This document shows, in pieces, positions 3,868 through 26,416 of a DNA stretch of 41,835 nucleotides (position 1 is the stretch's first letter; each line of letters opens with the position of its first letter). Made by a program: the position numbers and the translations under genes. The notes below the pieces were generated by a model. It saw only the letters and a program-made list of their open reading frames with translations. It ran no database searches and was not told the origin of the DNA. Source of the stretch: Humidesulfovibrio sp. (GTDB taxonomy: Bacteria; Desulfobacterota; Desulfovibrionia; Desulfovibrionales; Desulfovibrionaceae); assembly GCF_030689645.1 (NCBI RefSeq), contig NZ_JAUYFU010000018.1:1-41835 (forward strand), written 5' to 3'.

Positions 3868-5492
<1,625 letters not shown>

Positions 5493-7401: not shown

Positions 7402-10126
7402 AAAGACTAAATTTTTCGCACTGGCGGTTTTGACCATGGCGCTGGCGATGTTCGCCGCGCCACGGGAGTTTTTCGCCGCCGTCACCTCCCCACGGGAGGT
7501 CTCGGTGGTGGTGCTGCCGTTCGAGGTCAACGCCGGCGACGACATGAAGTACCTGCGCCAAGGCTTGCAGGACATGTTGTCCGACCGCCTGAGCGATGCG
7601 GGCTTCACCGTGGTTACCCGTGAGGCCCTGGAGAAGGCTCTGGCCTCCAAGGGGCTTCGGACCACAGACCCCCAGGCCGCCAGAGAGGGCGCGCTTCTGA
7701 CCGGGGCATCATTCGCCATTGTTGGCAGCTTCAGCCAGTTGGGCGAGACCCTGTCCCTCGACGTGCGCGTCACCGACCCATTCGGCCTCAAGCAGGCTGT
7801 GCCCATCTCCGTCAGCAAGGACGGCCTCATCAACCTGCTGCCCGGCGTTGACGAGCTGGTGGCCAAAATGAAGGGCGACCTGCTGGGCCTCGACCGCATC
7901 GTTGACATTCAGGTTGAGGGCGCAGTGGCTCTGGACCGCGAAGTGGTCCTCATGCGCATGAGCGCCAAGAAGGGCGACACCATCGATTTCAAGACCATCA
8001 ACGCCGACGTGAAGACCGTGTTCGAACTGGGCTACTTCGACGACGTGAAGGCGCTCCTGCGCGATGCCCCGGCGGGCAAGATCCTTGTGGTGAAGGTCGT
8101 GGAGAAGCCGCGCATTCTGGCCATCGGCGTCAAGGGCGCCAAGGAGCTCAAGAGCGAAGACATCATCAAGGTCGCCAGCTCCAAGAAAGGCGCGGTGCTG
8201 AACCCCAAGGTTCTGGCTGAAGACATCGGCGCCATCCGCGAAATGTACCGCAAGGACGGCTACTACAACGCCAAGGTCACTCACGAGATCGAGTCTGCCG
8301 GCCAAGGTCAGGCGCGTCTCAACTTCGTCATCGACGAGGGCAAAAAGCTTTACATCAAGAAGATCACTATCCTGGGCGCCAAGCAGCTGCCGGAAGACGA
8401 GCTCAAGGACGAACTGGCCGTGAAGGAACGCGGCATGTTCTCCTGGCTTACCCAGGGCGGCGTGCTGAAAGAGGAGCTCCTTGAACGCGACAGCGCGGCC
8501 CTTGCTGCGTATTACAACAACCGCGGCTTCATCGACGCCAAGGTCGGAGCGCCAGAAGTGGCCATCGGCGAGGACGGCATCACCATCACGTTCAAGGTGG
8601 AGGAAGGCCCGCGCTTCAAGGTCGAGTCCGTGCGCATCGAGGGTGACCTCATCGCCGACGCGCCCAAGTTGCTGGCGCTGACGAAGCTCTCCGATTCCGC
8701 CAAGAATAAGGACTACCTGGATCGCTCCCTGGTGCGCGACGACCTGAAGGCCCTGACCGACTACTACAACAACTTCGGCTACGCCTACGCGGAAGCCAAT
8801 GTGCGCATGAACGACCACCCGGAAGAAAAGTCCGTGGATGTCATCTATGTTATGCGTAAACTCCAGAAGGTCCACATCCGCCGGGTGCTTCTTGAGGGCA
8901 ACACCAAGACCCGCGACAACGTCATCCTGCGCGAAATGCGCCTGGCCGACGGCGACCAGTTCAGCGGTGAGAAGCTTAAGCGCTCCAGTGCGCGCCTTGA
9001 CAAGCTCGGCTACTTCTCCAGCGTGGATATAGAGCCCGTGCCCACAGGCAATCCCGACGAGATGGACCTGAAAGTCAAGGTCAAGGACAAGGACACCGGC
9101 AAGGTCGGCGGCGGCGTGGGCTACTCCACCTACGACAGCGTGTATCTGGCCGCCTCCCTTGAGGAAGCCAACCTCTTCGGCAAGGGCTGGAGCTCCAGCC
9201 TGAACGGGCAATGGGGCGCCAAAAAGACCGCCTATACCTTCCAGGCCATGAACCCCCGCTGGGACGACAGCCTGCTTGGCGTCGGCTTCCAGCTCTTTGA
9301 CCGGAAGGAAGACTACGTCAGCTACAATCGCGACTCCATGGGCGGCAAGGTGAACTTCGCCTATCCCATAGGCGAGTACACCAGCCTGTTGTGGGACTAT
9401 CGCCTTGAGCGCTACAAAATCTACGATGTCGACTCCACCCAGGCTTCGCAGCTCGTGATCGACTCCCTTGGCACCCATACCGCGAGCGTGGCTTCGGCAA
9501 CCGTGATGCGCGACACCACCAATGGCGGCGCCACCTCGTTGCCCACCAACGGTACTGTGAACAGCTTCACCCTCATGTACGGCGGCGGCATGCTTGCCGG
9601 CAGCGACAACTTCGTTAAGGGCATTGTGGATTCCAGCTGGTATCATCCTGTCATCGGCGACCTGGTGTTCCGCTGGCACGGTCAGGTCGGCTGGGTTGGC
9701 AAGAACCTGAGCGACGACTCCGTCCCCGTGAGCGAGCGGTTCTCTCTTGGCGGTTCGGGAACTGTGCGCGGCTATTCGCAGCGCAAGATCACACCGCTTG
9801 AGAACAACGGCTTCGGCGCTGTGTATGGCGATAAGGAAGCTTTCACAAACCTTGAGCTTACCTATCCCCTCAGCAAAAAGATGGGCATTTACGGCACCGG
9901 CTTTTTTGACGCAGGCAATACCTGGAAAGAAGGCGAGGGCTGGTTTAGCGCTCCCAAGCGCGGCGGTGTTGCAGCGCCGTCGTTTGGGTTGTATAAGAGT
10001 GTCGGTCTTGGCATACTCTGGTATTCTCCCATGGGGCCGCTCAAAATTGAGTACGGACACGGCCTTGACGAGCTTTACGACAGCAGCAACAACAAGGTGG
10101 AGTTCAACATGGGGCGCACCTTCTAG
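7388..10126 (+). CDS. bamA: Outer-membrane protein assembly factor BamA with an extra N-terminal domain
   Basis: BamA inserts beta-barrel proteins into the outer membrane. The 912 residues begin with a signal peptide (about 1-31). Next comes an additional alpha/beta domain (about 36-165) opening with VVLPFEVNAGDDMKYLRQGL, which resembles FlgO/CsgG/TolB-N type domains. Five POTRA repeats follow, starting near residues 171, 241, 319, 407 and 492. A 16-strand barrel begins near 575. The barrel hallmark VRGY is at 793-796, and the C-terminus ends in Phe, as outer-membrane proteins usually do. E. coli BamA has about 810 residues, so the excess matches the extra domain. It overlaps lolD by 14 nt and is followed by ompH and lpxD, the common bam-skp-lpx order. 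Confidence 0.93.
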   Translation: MPRGRKTKFFALAVLTMALAMFAAPREFFAAVTSPREVSVVVLPFEVNAGDDMKYLRQGLQDMLSDRLSDAGFTVVTREALEKALASKGLRTTDPQAAREGALLTGASFAIVGSFSQLGETLSLDVRVTDPFGLKQAVPISVSKDGLINLLPGVDELVAKMKGDLLGLDRIVDIQVEGAVALDREVVLMRMSAKKGDTIDFKTINADVKTVFELGYFDDVKALLRDAPAGKILVVKVVEKPRILAIGVKGAKELKSEDIIKVASSKKGAVLNPKVLAEDIGAIREMYRKDGYYNAKVTHEIESAGQGQARLNFVIDEGKKLYIKKITILGAKQLPEDELKDELAVKERGMFSWLTQGGVLKEELLERDSAALAAYYNNRGFIDAKVGAPEVAIGEDGITITFKVEEGPRFKVESVRIEGDLIADAPKLLALTKLSDSAKNKDYLDRSLVRDDLKALTDYYNNFGYAYAEANVRMNDHPEEKSVDVIYVMRKLQKVHIRRVLLEGNTKTRDNVILREMRLADGDQFSGEKLKRSSARLDKLGYFSSVDIEPVPTGNPDEMDLKVKVKDKDTGKVGGGVGYSTYDSVYLAASLEEANLFGKGWSSSLNGQWGAKKTAYTFQAMNPRWDDSLLGVGFQLFDRKEDYVSYNRDSMGGKVNFAYPIGEYTSLLWDYRLERYKIYDVDSTQASQLVIDSLGTHTASVASATVMRDTTNGGATSLPTNGTVNSFTLMYGGGMLAGSDNFVKGIVDSSWYHPVIGDLVFRWHGQVGWVGKNLSDDSVPVSERFSLGGSGTVRGYSQRKITPLENNGFGAVYGDKEAFTNLELTYPLSKKMGIYGTGFFDAGNTWKEGEGWFSAPKRGGVAAPSFGLYKSVGLGILWYSPMGPLKIEYGHGLDELYDSSNNKVEFNMGRTF

Positions 10127-22376: not shown

Positions 22377-22661
22377 ATGAAAAAGCTCGTTATTTTTGCC
22401 ATCGGCTCCTATTCTCTGCTCATGGTTGTGTCCCTGGTGTTTGCCCAGGCCAGCGCGGGCAAGCTGACTGCCCAGGTCTGCTCCGCCTGCCATAGCACGG
22501 CGCGCATCTGCGAGAAGCTGGGCAACCGCAAGCCCGAGGTCTGGCTGCAGACGGTTGAGCGCATGAAGAGCAACGGGGCCAAGCTGTCCGCTGCGGATGT
22601 GACCACAGTGACCGAGTACCTCGCCACGGCCAAGCCCGGCTCCAAGCCCGTCTGCCAGTAG
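22377..22661 (+). CDS. Small monohaem c-type cytochrome
   Basis: The 94-residue protein has a signal peptide (about 1-27) and one haem-binding motif CSACH (C35, C38, H39). M63 in VERMKSNG is the likely distal ligand, and a C-terminal helix follows. It would act in the periplasm as an electron carrier. Two extra cysteines, C45 and C93 (the next-to-last residue), could form a disulfide. ATG 22377 has GAAGG upstream and is supported by the signal peptide. The redox partner is not shown by context; the next gene is cutA, 7 nt on. Confidence 0.8.
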   Translation: MKKLVIFAIGSYSLLMVVSLVFAQASAGKLTAQVCSACHSTARICEKLGNRKPEVWLQTVERMKSNGAKLSAADVTTVTEYLATAKPGSKPVCQ

Positions 22662-22668
22662 GCCCCAC

Positions 22669-22989
22669 GTGGCCGCGCACCTGGTCTACGTCACCGCGCC
22701 CAGCCTGGCCGAGGCCGAGAGCCTGGCTCGGCTGGCTGTGGAGGGGCGTCTGGCCGCCTGCGCCAACATTCTGCCGGGCATGCGCTCACTCTATTGGTGG
22801 CAGGGCGCGCTGGAAAGCGCCGAGGAAGTCGTGCTGTTGCTCAAGACCTCTGAGGCCCTCGTTCCCGCCTTGACCAAGGCCCTGACCGAGGCCCACAGCT
22901 ACGACTGCCCCTGCGTGGTGGCGCTGCCCATTGTCCAGGGCAACCCGGATTTCCTGCGCTGGATAGAGGCCGAGACAGCGCCCCGCTGA
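22669..22989 (+). CDS. cutA: Divalent-cation tolerance protein CutA
   Basis: CutA is a small trimeric ferredoxin-fold protein associated with copper and other divalent cation tolerance; its exact role is unsettled. The 106 residues are standard for the family, with VYVTAPSLAEAESLARLAVE, ACANILPGMRSLYWWQGALE, and then LLLKT and the YDCPCVVALPI strand. The start is GTG at 22669, 7 nt after the cytochrome stop, with a poor ribosome site, so translation may be coupled to the cytochrome. Confidence 0.92.
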   Translation: MAAHLVYVTAPSLAEAESLARLAVEGRLAACANILPGMRSLYWWQGALESAEEVVLLLKTSEALVPALTKALTEAHSYDCPCVVALPIVQGNPDFLRWIEAETAPR

Positions 22990-23038: not shown

Positions 23039-23974
23039 ATGCAGCTGTATATTTCCGGTTCCCTGGCCCTTGACCGCATCATGAACTTTCCCGGCAAGTT
23101 CGCCGACCACATCCTGCCGGACAAGATCCACATCCTGAACGTCTGCTTCCTGGTGGACGGGCTGAACGAATATTTCGGCGGCACGGCGGGCAACATCGCC
23201 TACAACCTGTCCATGCTGGGCGAGAAGCCGCTGATCCTGGGCTGCGCAGGCAAGGACTTCGCCCCCTACTCCGAGCGCCTGAAGGGCCTGGGCCTGTCCC
23301 TCGACGGCATTCGCGTCGTGGAGAGCCAGTTCACCGCCGGGGCGTACATCACCACCGACGAGACCGACAACCAGATCACCGGCTTCAACCCCGGAGCCAT
23401 GCGCGAGCCCTGCGGCTACAAGTTTCCGGCCAAGCACGAGGGCAAGGTCATGGGCATCATCTCGCCGGGCAACGTGCAGGACATGGTGGAGCTGCCCGTG
23501 TACTTCAAGAAGGCGGGCATCCCCTACATATTTGATCCGGGCCAGCAGATCACGGCCCTGACGGGCGAGCAGATGGCCGGGGCCATAGACGGCTCCTTCG
23601 CCCTGTGCACCAACGACTACGAGCTGGAGATGGTCATGAAGGCCACCGGCCTTTCCCGCGCGGAGCTGCTCAAGCGCACCGGCGCGCTGGTCACCACCCT
23701 GGGCGACCAGGGCAGCCTCATCGCCCAGGGCGAAACGGAGACCCGCGTGGCCGCCGTGAAGGTCGACAAGGCCCTTGATCCCACGGGCGCAGGCGACGCC
23801 TATCGCGCAGGGCTTTTGAAGGGACTGAGCCTGGGCCAGAGCCTGCCCGAGGCCGCGGCCCTGGGCAGCGTGTGCGCGGCCTTCTGCGTGGCGCACAAGG
23901 GCACCCAGGAGCACAGCTTCACCATGCAGAGCTTCAACGCCAGCCTGACCGCCCACTTCGGCCGGAGCATCTAG
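23039..23974 (+). CDS. PfkB/ribokinase family kinase (adenosine-kinase-like)
   Basis: The family phosphorylates sugars or nucleosides with ATP. The 311 residues include the N-terminal glycine motif EYFGGTAGNIAYNLSMLG (about 44-61) and the catalytic signature DPTGAGDAYRAG (247-258, base D253). NIAYNLSMLG and TNDYELEMVM resemble adenosine-kinase-like and archaeal nucleoside kinase branches more than fructose kinases, but the substrate cannot be assigned. A strong GGAGG ribosome site precedes the ATG. It is the first of three unrelated kinases in a row. Confidence 0.88.
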   Translation: MQLYISGSLALDRIMNFPGKFADHILPDKIHILNVCFLVDGLNEYFGGTAGNIAYNLSMLGEKPLILGCAGKDFAPYSERLKGLGLSLDGIRVVESQFTAGAYITTDETDNQITGFNPGAMREPCGYKFPAKHEGKVMGIISPGNVQDMVELPVYFKKAGIPYIFDPGQQITALTGEQMAGAIDGSFALCTNDYELEMVMKATGLSRAELLKRTGALVTTLGDQGSLIAQGETETRVAAVKVDKALDPTGAGDAYRAGLLKGLSLGQSLPEAAALGSVCAAFCVAHKGTQEHSFTMQSFNASLTAHFGRSI

Positions 23975-24030
23975 CCCGGTCGACACCGCCCCGCGCCTGC
24001 TTCCGGGCGCGGCAACCGGAAGGAGGGTCC

Positions 24031-25122
24031 ATGATCGACCTGAAGCCGGAGAGCGTTTCCGAGTACCTGCGCCGGGCCTTCGGGCCTGGCGCGGTCCTCG
24101 CGGACCTGGGGGCCATCGGCACCCTGGACAAGCAGGGCATCAAGCGTTTCGGCTACGGCAAGCCGCTGCTCGTCCGCTTCAGCGTGGACGGCGAACCCCG
24201 CGAAGGGGTGCTGTCCGTCATGCGCGGCGACAAATACGGCCACCAGTTCTACTGGGATCGCGCCGCCATCCTCATGTTCCAGTTCGAGACCTCGGCCCGC
24301 CTGCCGCGCCACGTGCGGCCCATGGGCTTGGGCTATGTGGACGATCAGAACCGCCTCATCCCCGTGGTCGAGCCCCGCGAATTCTTCATCATGAACGAGA
24401 AACTTGAGGGCTACGACTACTTCCTTGATCTGGAGCGCGTGCGCGAGGGCGACTACCGCCCTGGCGACCTTGAGCTGGCGCGCGGCCTTGCGCGCTGGCT
24501 GGCCGAAATCCACGCCGGGAAAAAGGCCGACCCGGACCTCTATTACCGCCACGTGCGCAACCTGCTGGGCGCCAGCGAGTGCATCATGGGCCTTGTGGAC
24601 GAGGCCTTTCCTCACCCCTGCGAGTTCTTGGCCGACGAAGACTTCATCCGGCTGGAGAAGCGCCTTATCGATTGGCGCTGGAGGCTGCGCGGGTATGCCC
24701 ACCGCTTGAGCGTGGTGCATGGCGACGTGCACCCCTGGAACATCCTGGTGGACGGCCAGGGCGGCTTCTCCGTGCTGGACCGCAGCCGGGGCGAGTGGGG
24801 CGAGCCCGCTGGCGACCTGGCCTCCCTGGCCGCCAACTATCTGCTCTTCGGCCTGCTTGCGAACCCGGATGAGGCGCGGCTTTCCGGCCCCTTTGCCGAG
24901 CTGTGGACCGCGCTCTTCGAGGAATATCTGGCGGGCACCGGCGATGCCGGAATTCTTGAGGCCATGGCCCCGTTCTTCGTATTCCGGGGTCTGGTCATCG
25001 TCTCGCCGGAGTGGTACCCTAACCATCCCGCCCCGGTGCGGCGCGCCCTGGTCCGCTTCCTCACCAGCGTGCTGGAGGACGACTCCTTCGACTGGCGCAA
25101 CGTCAACAAATATCTGGAGTAG
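24031..25122 (+). CDS. Aminoglycoside-phosphotransferase-fold (protein-kinase-like) kinase
   Basis: The 363 residues have the APH/choline-kinase pattern: VVHGDVHPWNILVD (catalytic D232, N237), followed by the metal-binding D250 in SVLDRSRGEWGEPAGDLAS. The N-lobe is unusual for APH. It has VRFSVDGEPREGVLSVMRGD rather than an obvious glycine-rich loop plus lysine. The substrate is unknown; members phosphorylate sugars, choline and other small molecules. ATG 24031 has GGAAGGAGG upstream. It lies 56 nt after the PfkB gene and 2 nt before the APS-kinase-like gene, so the three are very likely co-expressed. An antibiotic-resistance role is not supported. Confidence 0.82.
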   Translation: MIDLKPESVSEYLRRAFGPGAVLADLGAIGTLDKQGIKRFGYGKPLLVRFSVDGEPREGVLSVMRGDKYGHQFYWDRAAILMFQFETSARLPRHVRPMGLGYVDDQNRLIPVVEPREFFIMNEKLEGYDYFLDLERVREGDYRPGDLELARGLARWLAEIHAGKKADPDLYYRHVRNLLGASECIMGLVDEAFPHPCEFLADEDFIRLEKRLIDWRWRLRGYAHRLSVVHGDVHPWNILVDGQGGFSVLDRSRGEWGEPAGDLASLAANYLLFGLLANPDEARLSGPFAELWTALFEEYLAGTGDAGILEAMAPFFVFRGLVIVSPEWYPNHPAPVRRALVRFLTSVLEDDSFDWRNVNKYLE

Positions 25123-25124
25123 CC

Positions 25125-25778
25125 ATGGCCCAAACACAGATGCCGCCGCCGTCCGCACACGCGGGCTGGGCCCTGTGGTTCACGGGCCTGCCCGGCTGCG
25201 GCAAGAGCACCATCGCCCGCGCCGTGCATGGGGAGCTTGCGCGCCGGGGGGTCGACGCCTCGCTCCTGCTCATGGATGAGCGGCGAAAGGCCTATTTCCC
25301 GCACCCGGCCTACAGCGCGGAAGAACGCGCCCAGGCCTACACGCTTTTCGCCCGCGAGGCTGCGGATCTCGTCGCCGCAGGGCGCGGGGTGATTTTGGAC
25401 GCCACGGCGCACCGGCTGGTCATGCGCCAGGAGGCGCGGAGCGTCATTCCCCGCTTTGCCGAGGTGCTGGTGCGCTGCCCGCTGCCTGAGGCCATGCGCC
25501 GCGAGGCCGTGCGCTCCAGCCAGTCCGCCATGGGTGGGCACCACCGGGGTTACGTCATGCCCGGCATGTATCAGAAGGCCATCATGCGCAAGCGCACCGG
25601 CGTGGCCGTGCCCGGCCTGGGCCAGGTGGTTGGCGTGGATGTGCAGTATGAGGAGAACCCGGAGGCCGAGTGCGTGCTCGACGCCATGCGCCCTGTGGAG
25701 GAGAACGCCCGGGCAGTGTTGCAGTTTCTTGATGCCTGGCTGCCTGGCCTGCCTCCGGAGCCTAAGGACGCGGCATGA
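25125..25778 (+). CDS. APS-kinase-like P-loop kinase, divergent
   Basis: The 217 residues match the CysC (adenylylsulfate kinase) fold. The P-loop GLPGCGKST is at 21-29. The equivalent of the DGD motif reads LLMDERRKAYF, the equivalent of the ISP motif reads VILDATAHRLVMRQEARS, and the later VDVQYEENPEAECVLD matches the CysC YE-x-P strand. The residues that differ are those that bind APS in true CysC, so another acceptor is likely (inference). It starts 2 nt after the APH-fold kinase gene and overlaps the methyltransferase gene by 4 nt. No other sulfate-assimilation gene is nearby. Confidence 0.8.
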   Translation: MAQTQMPPPSAHAGWALWFTGLPGCGKSTIARAVHGELARRGVDASLLLMDERRKAYFPHPAYSAEERAQAYTLFAREAADLVAAGRGVILDATAHRLVMRQEARSVIPRFAEVLVRCPLPEAMRREAVRSSQSAMGGHHRGYVMPGMYQKAIMRKRTGVAVPGLGQVVGVDVQYEENPEAECVLDAMRPVEENARAVLQFLDAWLPGLPPEPKDAA

Positions 25779-26416
25779 TGAGCCTCCCGCCCGAGGCCGT
25801 GTCCGATGCCTCCTACGCCTTTGGGCTGTGGACCGGCTGGGGCATTCTGCACAGCATCTTGGCCTCGCGCCGGGTGAAGGCCGCCTGCGAGCTGGTGCTC
25901 GGCCCGCGCTACGCCTTGTATCCCTTCGGCTATGCGGTCATCAGCCTGTGGACCTTCTGGCTGGTGCTGGCCAAGGAGCCGAATTTGCCCCAGGTGCTTT
26001 GGGCCTTGGAAGGCCTGCCGAAGTATCTTCTGTACGCAGCGCAGGGGCTTGGCCTCGGGCTGCTGGCCTGGGCCGCAATCACCGTGGCGGGTCTGAAAAT
26101 GCTGGGCCTGCCGCAACTGGCCGACATGCTGCGGGGCCGCGTGCCCGACGAGGCGGACATCCGGCGCGACTTTCGGGCCAACGGCCCCTACGCCCTGGTG
26201 CGCCATCCCATGCACGCGGGCGGCATCCTCTTTCTTGCCTGCGCGCCGGTGCAGACCCTTGGGGGCCTTGTGTTCGCCGCGTTCGGCTGCGCGTACATGG
26301 TCATCGGCTCGCTTCTGGAGGAGCGCAGGCTGGCGCATGATCTTGGTCCGGTGTGGGACGACTACGCCCGGCGCGTGCCAATGTTTGCGCCATTTTTGGG
26401 CCACCGCCCAAGGTGA
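25775..26416 (+). CDS. Isoprenylcysteine methyltransferase (ICMT/PEMT-like) family membrane protein
   Basis: The 213-residue polytopic protein has about five hydrophobic segments. It carries the family C-terminal signature: GPYALVRHPMHAGGIL (about residues 141-156), then GSLLEERRLAHDLGPVWDDYARRVP, which form the SAM-binding site in ICMT/NnrU-type proteins. The bacterial substrate is unknown; lipid or small hydrophobic thiol acceptors are possible. ATG 25775 overlaps the APS-kinase-like stop (ATGA). It may form the tail of the three-kinase unit, because a promoter candidate for miaB follows it. Confidence 0.78.
   Translation: MMSLPPEAVSDASYAFGLWTGWGILHSILASRRVKAACELVLGPRYALYPFGYAVISLWTFWLVLAKEPNLPQVLWALEGLPKYLLYAAQGLGLGLLAWAAITVAGLKMLGLPQLADMLRGRVPDEADIRRDFRANGPYALVRHPMHAGGILFLACAPVQTLGGLVFAAFGCAYMVIGSLLEERRLAHDLGPVWDDYARRVPMFAPFLGHRPR

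Follow-up and report, generated by a model that had tools for sequence, protein, structure and literature searches.

Two adjacent kinase genes of Humidesulfovibrio sp. are a co-inherited pair with unusual predicted active sites

Kinases of the aminoglycoside phosphotransferase (APH) fold and P-loop kinases occur together in two-domain proteins that we take to be COG2187–COG0645 fusions of the Mycobacterium tuberculosis Rv2004c type, and these are the closest described counterpart of the gene pair considered here. The parts of one study that deal with Rv2004c (PMC1950094) report for it a high similarity to the COG2187 domain, whose function is unknown, and a low one to gluconate kinase; they give it the highest growth-inhibition score in the section on the devR regulon and discuss it within the dormancy regulon together with stress proteins. 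A passage of another paper (PMC5483032) leaves its molecular function to future study. In the relevant section of PMC1821047, Wnk kinases are reported to have lost the beta-3 lysine, with its charge transferred to the glycine-rich loop, and the same transfer of charge from lysine to loop is proposed for the CAK-chloro group; a passage of PMC4702295 describes HSK2 as having lost this lysine and the C-helix glutamate simultaneously. In this study, we analysed a 41,835-nucleotide stretch of DNA from Humidesulfovibrio sp. (contig NZ_JAUYFU010000018.1, positions 1 to 41,835; the whole stretch is called the window), in which three kinase genes, K1, K2 and K3, and a methyltransferase gene, M4, follow one another. 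K2 and K3 are a co-inherited pair with unusual predicted active sites and no assigned function, and K1 is, as predicted from its sequence, of an ordinary and separable type. The two genes of the pair are as follows.

24031–25122, + strand: K2, APH-fold kinase of 363 aa, Pfam PF01636 at E 4.6e-12 (length counted from the ATG at 24031; the mechanical open reading frame (ORF) extends further)
25125–25778, + strand: K3, P-loop kinase of 217 aa resembling adenosine 5′-phosphosulfate (APS) kinases, Pfam PF01583 at E 3.1e-15

Homologues were sought in 119 genomes of the window's family (limits of E 1e-30 for K1, E 1e-3 for K2 and E 1e-20 for K3) and in 247 genomes of its class (K2 limit E 1e-20; the class K3 set, from up to 12 candidates scored per genome, takes in the matches down to 8e-40, the next match lying at 5e-12). 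In the family, K2 and K3 were each found in 58 genomes and the two genome sets were identical; in every one of the 58, K3 follows K2 on the same strand, and in 57 it does so within 250 nt. In the class, K2 and K3 were each found in 118 genomes, again in identical sets, with K3 within 250 nt downstream of K2 in 109 of the 118 (the two samples overlap, so that 58/119 and 118/247 are not independent). Among the nine non-adjacent pairs of the class, three were still linked, at distances of 262, 462 and 2331 nt, and six were far apart, lying about 862 kb from each other on one contig in genome G130 and on different contigs in the other five. Two of these separated cases were read in context, the remaining four being in fragmented assemblies: K3 of G130 still adjoins a miaB-like ORF (locus L177), and K2 of G196 is still beside K1-like and miaB-like ORFs (L178), all these neighbours being named by eye. 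Given that G130 keeps K3, and G196 keeps K2, near a miaB-like ORF, the separation occurred at least twice. Joint absence of the two genes inside otherwise positive genera (G139, G146, G153 and G198 in genus g5; G109 in genus g26) points to more than one shared loss of K2 and K3. The K2–K3 arrangement exceeds chance and the tie to K1 is looser; the three-kinase unit is two modules side by side, K1 being one and K2 with K3 the other.

The surroundings of two K3 genes may be recorded here. The relocated K3 of G196 has metK/sahH-like ORFs on one side and an rsmE-like ORF on the other (L179, 669–6232; named by eye), an S-adenosylmethionine-cycle setting that may be due to chance. A contig of Solidesulfovibrio magneticus (L066) appears to carry two K3-like genes, at 4300–5040 on the + strand and 8806–9417 on the − strand, of which one follows K2 and the other is on the opposite strand.

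K2 scored 46.6 bits against the PF01636 cut-off of 23.2, and its AlphaFold2 model, with a mean predicted local distance difference test score (pLDDT) of 81.7, has an APH-type kinase fold. Sequence searches went no further: at E 1e-3, K2 had no match among the NCBIfam models, that of 5-methylthioribose kinase (MtnK, TIGR01767) included, and in the PDB the best E value was 0.17 with the K2 sequence, with no match at E 0.01 for the K2 profile. The structural matches were MtnK (Z 23.3), PsiK (22.3), LxmK (21.2) and 25-hydroxysteroid kinase (20.2), and a viral structure library gave low-identity kinase folds only. Although MtnK was ranked at the top, it stood only about one Z unit above PsiK and superposed on K2 over 319 residues with a root-mean-square deviation (rmsd) of 4.2 and 12% identity. 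Structure comparison, which had been put forward as a route to the substrates, did yield fold matches (MtnK and PsiK for K2, APS kinase for K3), but the ranking obtained with the predicted K2 model does not identify a substrate.

The HGDxHxxN catalytic loop and the later Asp were present in all 81 distinct K2 sequences covering this region, 2 of the 83 being without coverage. The beta-3 lysine (alignment column 62) was absent from 76 of the 83, one of which has a gap at this column, and all 76 carry Lys38. In the window K2, K38 is in the glycine-rich loop and position 62 in strand beta-3 is Ser. Column 62 falls within the predicted strand 55–64, while the Lys38 loop lies between the predicted strands 21–28 and 46–52; Lys38 itself is carried by a four-residue insertion with the pattern K-x-[FYL]-G-Y-G. 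The remaining 7 sequences, all from family f54, have kept Lys62 and lack the insertion. Since the loop is poorly predicted, the presumed placement of K38 beside ATP comes from sequence and strand order. K2 may be described as an APH-fold small-molecule kinase whose presumed ATP lysine has moved to the glycine-rich loop in a WNK-like manner. As in the WNK and CAK-chloro kinases, the beta-3 lysine is lost and a positive charge would come from the glycine-rich loop; unlike in them, the lysine is in a four-residue insertion, the protein is an APH-type kinase and a sister group keeps the ancestral lysine. A search of the open-paper literature found no description of a lysine shift of the K2 type or of WNK together with APH.

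The AlphaFold2 model of K3 (pLDDT 92.2) was closest to the APS kinase 7yq1 (Z 23.9, rmsd 1.5 over 171 residues), and the next structural matches after the APS kinases were gluconate kinase and the tRNA kinase PSTK. K3 scored 57 bits against PF01583, which is above the gathering threshold and higher than the 47.8 bits obtained against PF13671 (AAA_33), and 62.7 bits against the apsK/CysC model TIGR00455, whose cut-off is 138.7. Seventeen weaker K3 matches of the class were fetched and grouped as APS-kinase homologues, one of them being the window genome's own. Residues were tabulated for 54 K3 sequences, 17 same-class APS-kinase homologues and 9 kinase domains of COG2187–COG0645-type fusions (9 of 11 fusion domains and neither of two split ones entered the table, the rest having failed the P-loop search or the length filter); from L066, the K3 copy that does not adjoin K2 was used in both the table and the tree. 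K3 and the APS kinases have the fold, the scaffold residues R68, R105, E113, Y149 and G170, and Walker A in common. Tyr72 was found in 54/54 K3, 0/17 APS-kinase homologues and 9/9 COG0645 domains, and Asp92 in 52/54, 0/17 and 9/9, respectively; the acceptor side of the window K3 has Y72 and D92-A-T. Columns 71 (Asn), 49 (Asp) and 96 (Pro) are presumably residues of the APS-contacting site. In contrast to CysC, K3 is without the Asn (0/54 against 16/17 APS-kinase homologues) and mostly without the first Asp of DGD at column 49 (2/54 against 17/17) and the SP proline at column 96 (10/54 against 17/17), and the window K3 lacks all three.

With the tree rooted only at its midpoint, the homologues of APS kinase formed one clade (100/100), the COG0645 domains were far away and K3 was placed with the APS kinases. 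The score below the cut-off, the residue table and the separate clade of the APS kinases suggest that K3 is an APS kinase relative whose acceptor has probably changed. APS kinase as an identity for K3 was rejected on the apsK cut-off, the lost APS-site residues and the separate clade. The window genome's own APS-kinase homologue (L002, on contig C32; 241–1176 on the − strand and 1157–1777 on the + strand) groups with the APS-kinase clade and has sulfotransferase-like and metallo-beta-lactamase-like ORFs as neighbours (by eye), possibly a small sulfation locus.

A search with AAA_33 led to many proteins of about 520 aa, the first half of which was APH-like in all 19 loci examined; one fusion scanned with Pfam showed APH and then AAA_33. 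One of the 19 loci serves as an example.

L126, 484–2037, + strand: COG2187–COG0645-type fusion

Fifteen of the 19 fusions were aligned (alignment A5), four long or uncertain ones being left out, and partial ORFs were left out of one homologue set. In the phylum sample, at least 157 of 247 genomes were matched by the A5 profile at E 1e-40, in many cases along just the APH-like half, the count being a lower bound with six candidates scored per genome. Profile comparison aligned K2 (columns 114–322) with the first half of A5 (probability score 96.6, E 5.8e-10) and K3 with the second half (99.1, E 1e-18). The fusions and the K2–K3 pair are alike in that an APH-like kinase precedes a P-loop kinase and in that the acceptor signature, Tyr with Asp-Ala-Thr/Ser, is common to the fusions and K3. 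They differ in that K2 and K3 are separate genes where both were read, that K2 belongs to another APH subfamily with the lysine moved, and that K3 is built on the APS-kinase scaffold; K3 scores higher with PF01583 than with AAA_33, and the tree separates it from the COG0645 domains. Mutual exclusion of the two systems was considered and rejected: 7 of the 8 family f54 genomes with a K2 match (one of the eight, G365, a fragment) also have a COG2187-type match, and G507 carries both pairs. In the phylum sample, a COG2187-type match was found in 1 of the 14 genomes with a strong K2 match (G443), six candidates being scored in each, so that misses are possible. Judged by these sequences, the K2–K3 pair resembles the COG2187–COG0645 kinases in organisation but is not a member of that group, and it coexists with them. 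Kinases of the COG2187–COG0645 type look under-studied.

Beyond the class, 22 of the 247 genomes in the phylum sample matched K2 at E 1e-3, 14 of them strongly, including three from the window's family. The 11 strong genomes of other families span five families (f25, f33, f41, f54 and f55), and in 10 of them a K3 homologue comes directly after K2; three further K2–K3 pairs were found in family f54. The unpaired K2 genes of G443 (L121, 8124–9173, − strand) and G521 (L170, 4040–5128, − strand) both retain the ancestral beta-3 lysine, and both genomes also hold a COG2187-type match. Comparison of the neighbours across eleven other-family loci revealed no constant partner of the K2–K3 pair. In three of the loci (L117, L119 and L120), the pair has genes for universal stress proteins (PF00582) no more than about 2.5 kb away, which is suggestive only, because no partner is constant across the eleven. 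In family f33, a macro-domain gene (L116, 9845–10384, − strand) and a DnaJ-C28-domain gene (L113, 3617–3982, − strand) are near the pair. Scanning of contigs with K2 gave 41 loci, all of which are named Desulfovibrionales or, broadly, Deltaproteobacteria or Proteobacteria, and a plasmid search with K2 gave 1 weak partial match among 72,556 records.

In the window, the pair is flanked by the following genes.

22377–22661: small c-type-cytochrome-like gene ahead of cutA, recurring beside cutA in many relatives
22669–22989, + strand: cutA, the usual neighbour of K1 and outside the kinase pair, CutA1 PF03091 at E 3e-36
23039–23974, + strand: K1, PfkB-fold kinase of 311 aa, Pfam PF00294 at E 4.2e-37
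25775–26416, + strand: M4, ICMT/MddA-like membrane methyltransferase of 213 aa, NCBIfam NF045656 at 72 bits
26568–28001, + strand: miaB, downstream flank and not part of the unit, TIGR01574 at E 2.1e-128, above cut-off

The ORF coordinates agree exactly with the layout given in the original prediction: K1, K2 and K3 are consecutive on one strand, with gaps of 56 nt (K1–K2) and 2 nt (K2–K3), and M4 directly follows K3 with an overlap of 4 nt. A purine-rich stretch is present upstream of each of the four starts (K1, K2, K3 and M4); a promoter scan gave 0 promoters, and a terminator scan gave 4 terminator-like sites against 4.9 expected. The named records closest to K2 are from Humidesulfovibrio, Desulfovibrio and similarly labelled metagenome genomes, with 76–84% identity.

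Residues 3–308 of K1 align with PDB 3b1n, labelled 'ribokinase, putative', at E 9.7e-67; we take this entry to be the nucleoside kinase of Burkholderia thailandensis. A literature search for the Burkholderia enzyme turned up no paper. K1 is also matched over nearly its full length, at E about 5e-57, by adenosine kinases such as 2pkf, presumably the mycobacterial adenosine kinase. The likeness to 3b1n and the adenosine kinases includes the catalytic GxGD motif, present in K1 as DPTGAGDA (pattern DPTGxGDA), and the substrate of K1 is putative. K1 was found in 112 of the 119 genomes of the family, and K2 and K3 were each found in 58; in 37 of these 58, K1 and K2 share a strand and are no more than 400 nt apart. 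One family genome, G020, has the pair with no K1 match at E 1e-30; in five others (G058, G090, G015, G025 and G080), a distance of 35 kb to 1 Mb separates K1 from K2 within one contig; and in L060 and L064, cutA and K1 stay joined while K2–K3 is on the other strand or 2.2 kb off. Of 12 other-family K2 genomes searched, 2 have K1, which adjoins K2 in G335 only, and in the other 10 it was not found at E 1e-10; in the distant-family locus L111, the two genes are arranged head to head. The idea that K1 is required was rejected on the genome counts, the unlinked cases and the 10 of 12 other-family genomes with no K1 match. By its homology, K1 is an ordinary, separable kinase of the nucleoside-salvage type that is co-located rather than required.

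M4 matched no Pfam family at E 1e-3, and its sole NCBIfam match, to MddA (NF045656), reached 72 bits, below the cut-off of 270. Of 71 loci, some of them short, 21 were found to contain M4, which was rejected on this count as a core part; it is an optional, lineage-specific neighbour of the pair. Gene order in relatives, proposed as a check on the three-kinase unit, is kept for K2–K3 (adjacent in 109 of the 118 class genomes), more loosely for K1 (37/58), and for M4 in 21/71 loci. A stepwise phosphorylation by all three kinases, as first proposed, is supported for K2 and K3, which are kept and lost together, but not for K1, a nucleoside-kinase homologue that is far more widespread than the pair in the family.

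The co-retention of K2 and K3, their gene order, their catalytic residues, and the changed acceptor and ATP-lysine sites favour a two-step relay, and we give about even chances to K2 and K3 being one functional unit that acts successively on one small metabolite. K2 would phosphorylate a hydroxyl of this metabolite, and K3, from the APS-kinase lineage with a different acceptor pocket, would phosphorylate the product of K2, or the two would act in the reverse order; the outcome would be a doubly phosphorylated or activated metabolite. K1 would carry out nucleoside salvage as a co-located gene, and M4 would be an optional addition. What we infer is that K2 and K3 act on a common molecule, in which order they do so, and that the product has a stress or maintenance role. 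A ribose-like or polyol-like substrate is a guess, and a doubtful one, drawn from the MtnK-like and APS-kinase-like folds and the frequent K1 neighbour. We propose, tentatively and with less confidence than the relay itself, that a kinase of the APH fold, having re-invented the WNK trick, and a neofunctionalised relative of APS kinase make up a two-kinase pathway so far unrecognised, which would produce a bisphosphorylated metabolite; there would then be at least two separately built pairs of APH and P-loop kinases, the other being COG2187–COG0645, for the same kind of chemistry. Literature searches found no named pathway with K2 and K3, and the original prediction knew of none for its set.

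Several observations weigh against the relay. Co-occurrence cannot tell whether two enzymes catalyse consecutive steps or work as a complex or regulatory pair, and the samples contain related genomes, which are not independent. The best fold matches of K2 act on very different substrates, the first being nearly tied, and its glycine-rich loop is poorly predicted, with a mean pLDDT of 40 for residues 31–40. The tree does not show K3 to be monophyletic: L119, a sequence without Asp92, is placed outside (97/87), and the node uniting the other 53 has a support of only 87/53. K2 has no K3 neighbour in G443 and G521, where K3 elsewhere in the genome was not sought. The neighbours of the pair differ between families, so there is no conserved pathway context.

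Among the alternatives, the most serious, although clearly less probable than the relay, is that the two proteins work as a complex or a regulatory pair, with one serving as the kinase and the other as its activator or sensor, or that they modify a macromolecule such as RNA or protein. Co-retention even when unlinked and the short gaps or overlaps, which suggest balanced expression, would suit this alternative, as would the presence of LxmK, from a lexapeptide dehydratase complex, among the fold matches of K2, and of gluconate kinase and PSTK next after the APS kinases among the structural matches of K3. However, the catalytic residues are recognisable in both proteins, which does not suggest a pseudoenzyme, and a Pfam scan of the window proteins revealed no domain for binding RNA or peptides. 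That the two enzymes salvage different molecules in parallel within one programme, such as stress recovery, is rather improbable: the stress-protein genes near the pair in three loci and the occurrence of the pair with or without K1 are in its favour, yet identical sets in 247 genomes would require each single loss to have been followed by loss of the partner.

It is quite unlikely that K1, K2 and K3 with M4 make up one pathway. The closeness of K1 to K2, on one strand, in 37 of 58 genomes and the head-to-head arrangement in L111 speak for such a pathway, but K1 is in 112 of 119 genomes when the pair is in 58, was not found in 10 of 12 other-family K2 genomes and lies 35 kb to 1 Mb from K2 in five genomes, and M4 was found in 21 of 71 loci. 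We regard it as very improbable that the pairing is incidental, with K3 being an ordinary APS kinase and K2 an unrelated kinase of the antibiotic type, as the Pfam names and the nearness of the K3 structure to APS kinases (Z 23.9) might suggest, given that K3 scores 62.7 bits against 138.7 and has wholly or mostly lost the APS-site Asn, Asp and Pro, that the genome has another APS-kinase homologue, in the APS-kinase clade and beside a sulfotransferase-like ORF (by eye), and that the co-occurrence is complete in the class sample. The two-step relay by K2 and K3 is the reading that we prefer over these alternatives.

A kinase pair that is co-inherited in 118 of 247 genomes of the class and has no assigned substrate suggests a missing metabolite or a missing step. 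Because the relocated and the ancestral lysine both occur among its homologues, K2 offers a natural test of the relocation of a catalytic lysine in a kinase fold. Since the K2–K3 and COG2187–COG0645 systems are linked, solving the one may help to solve the other.

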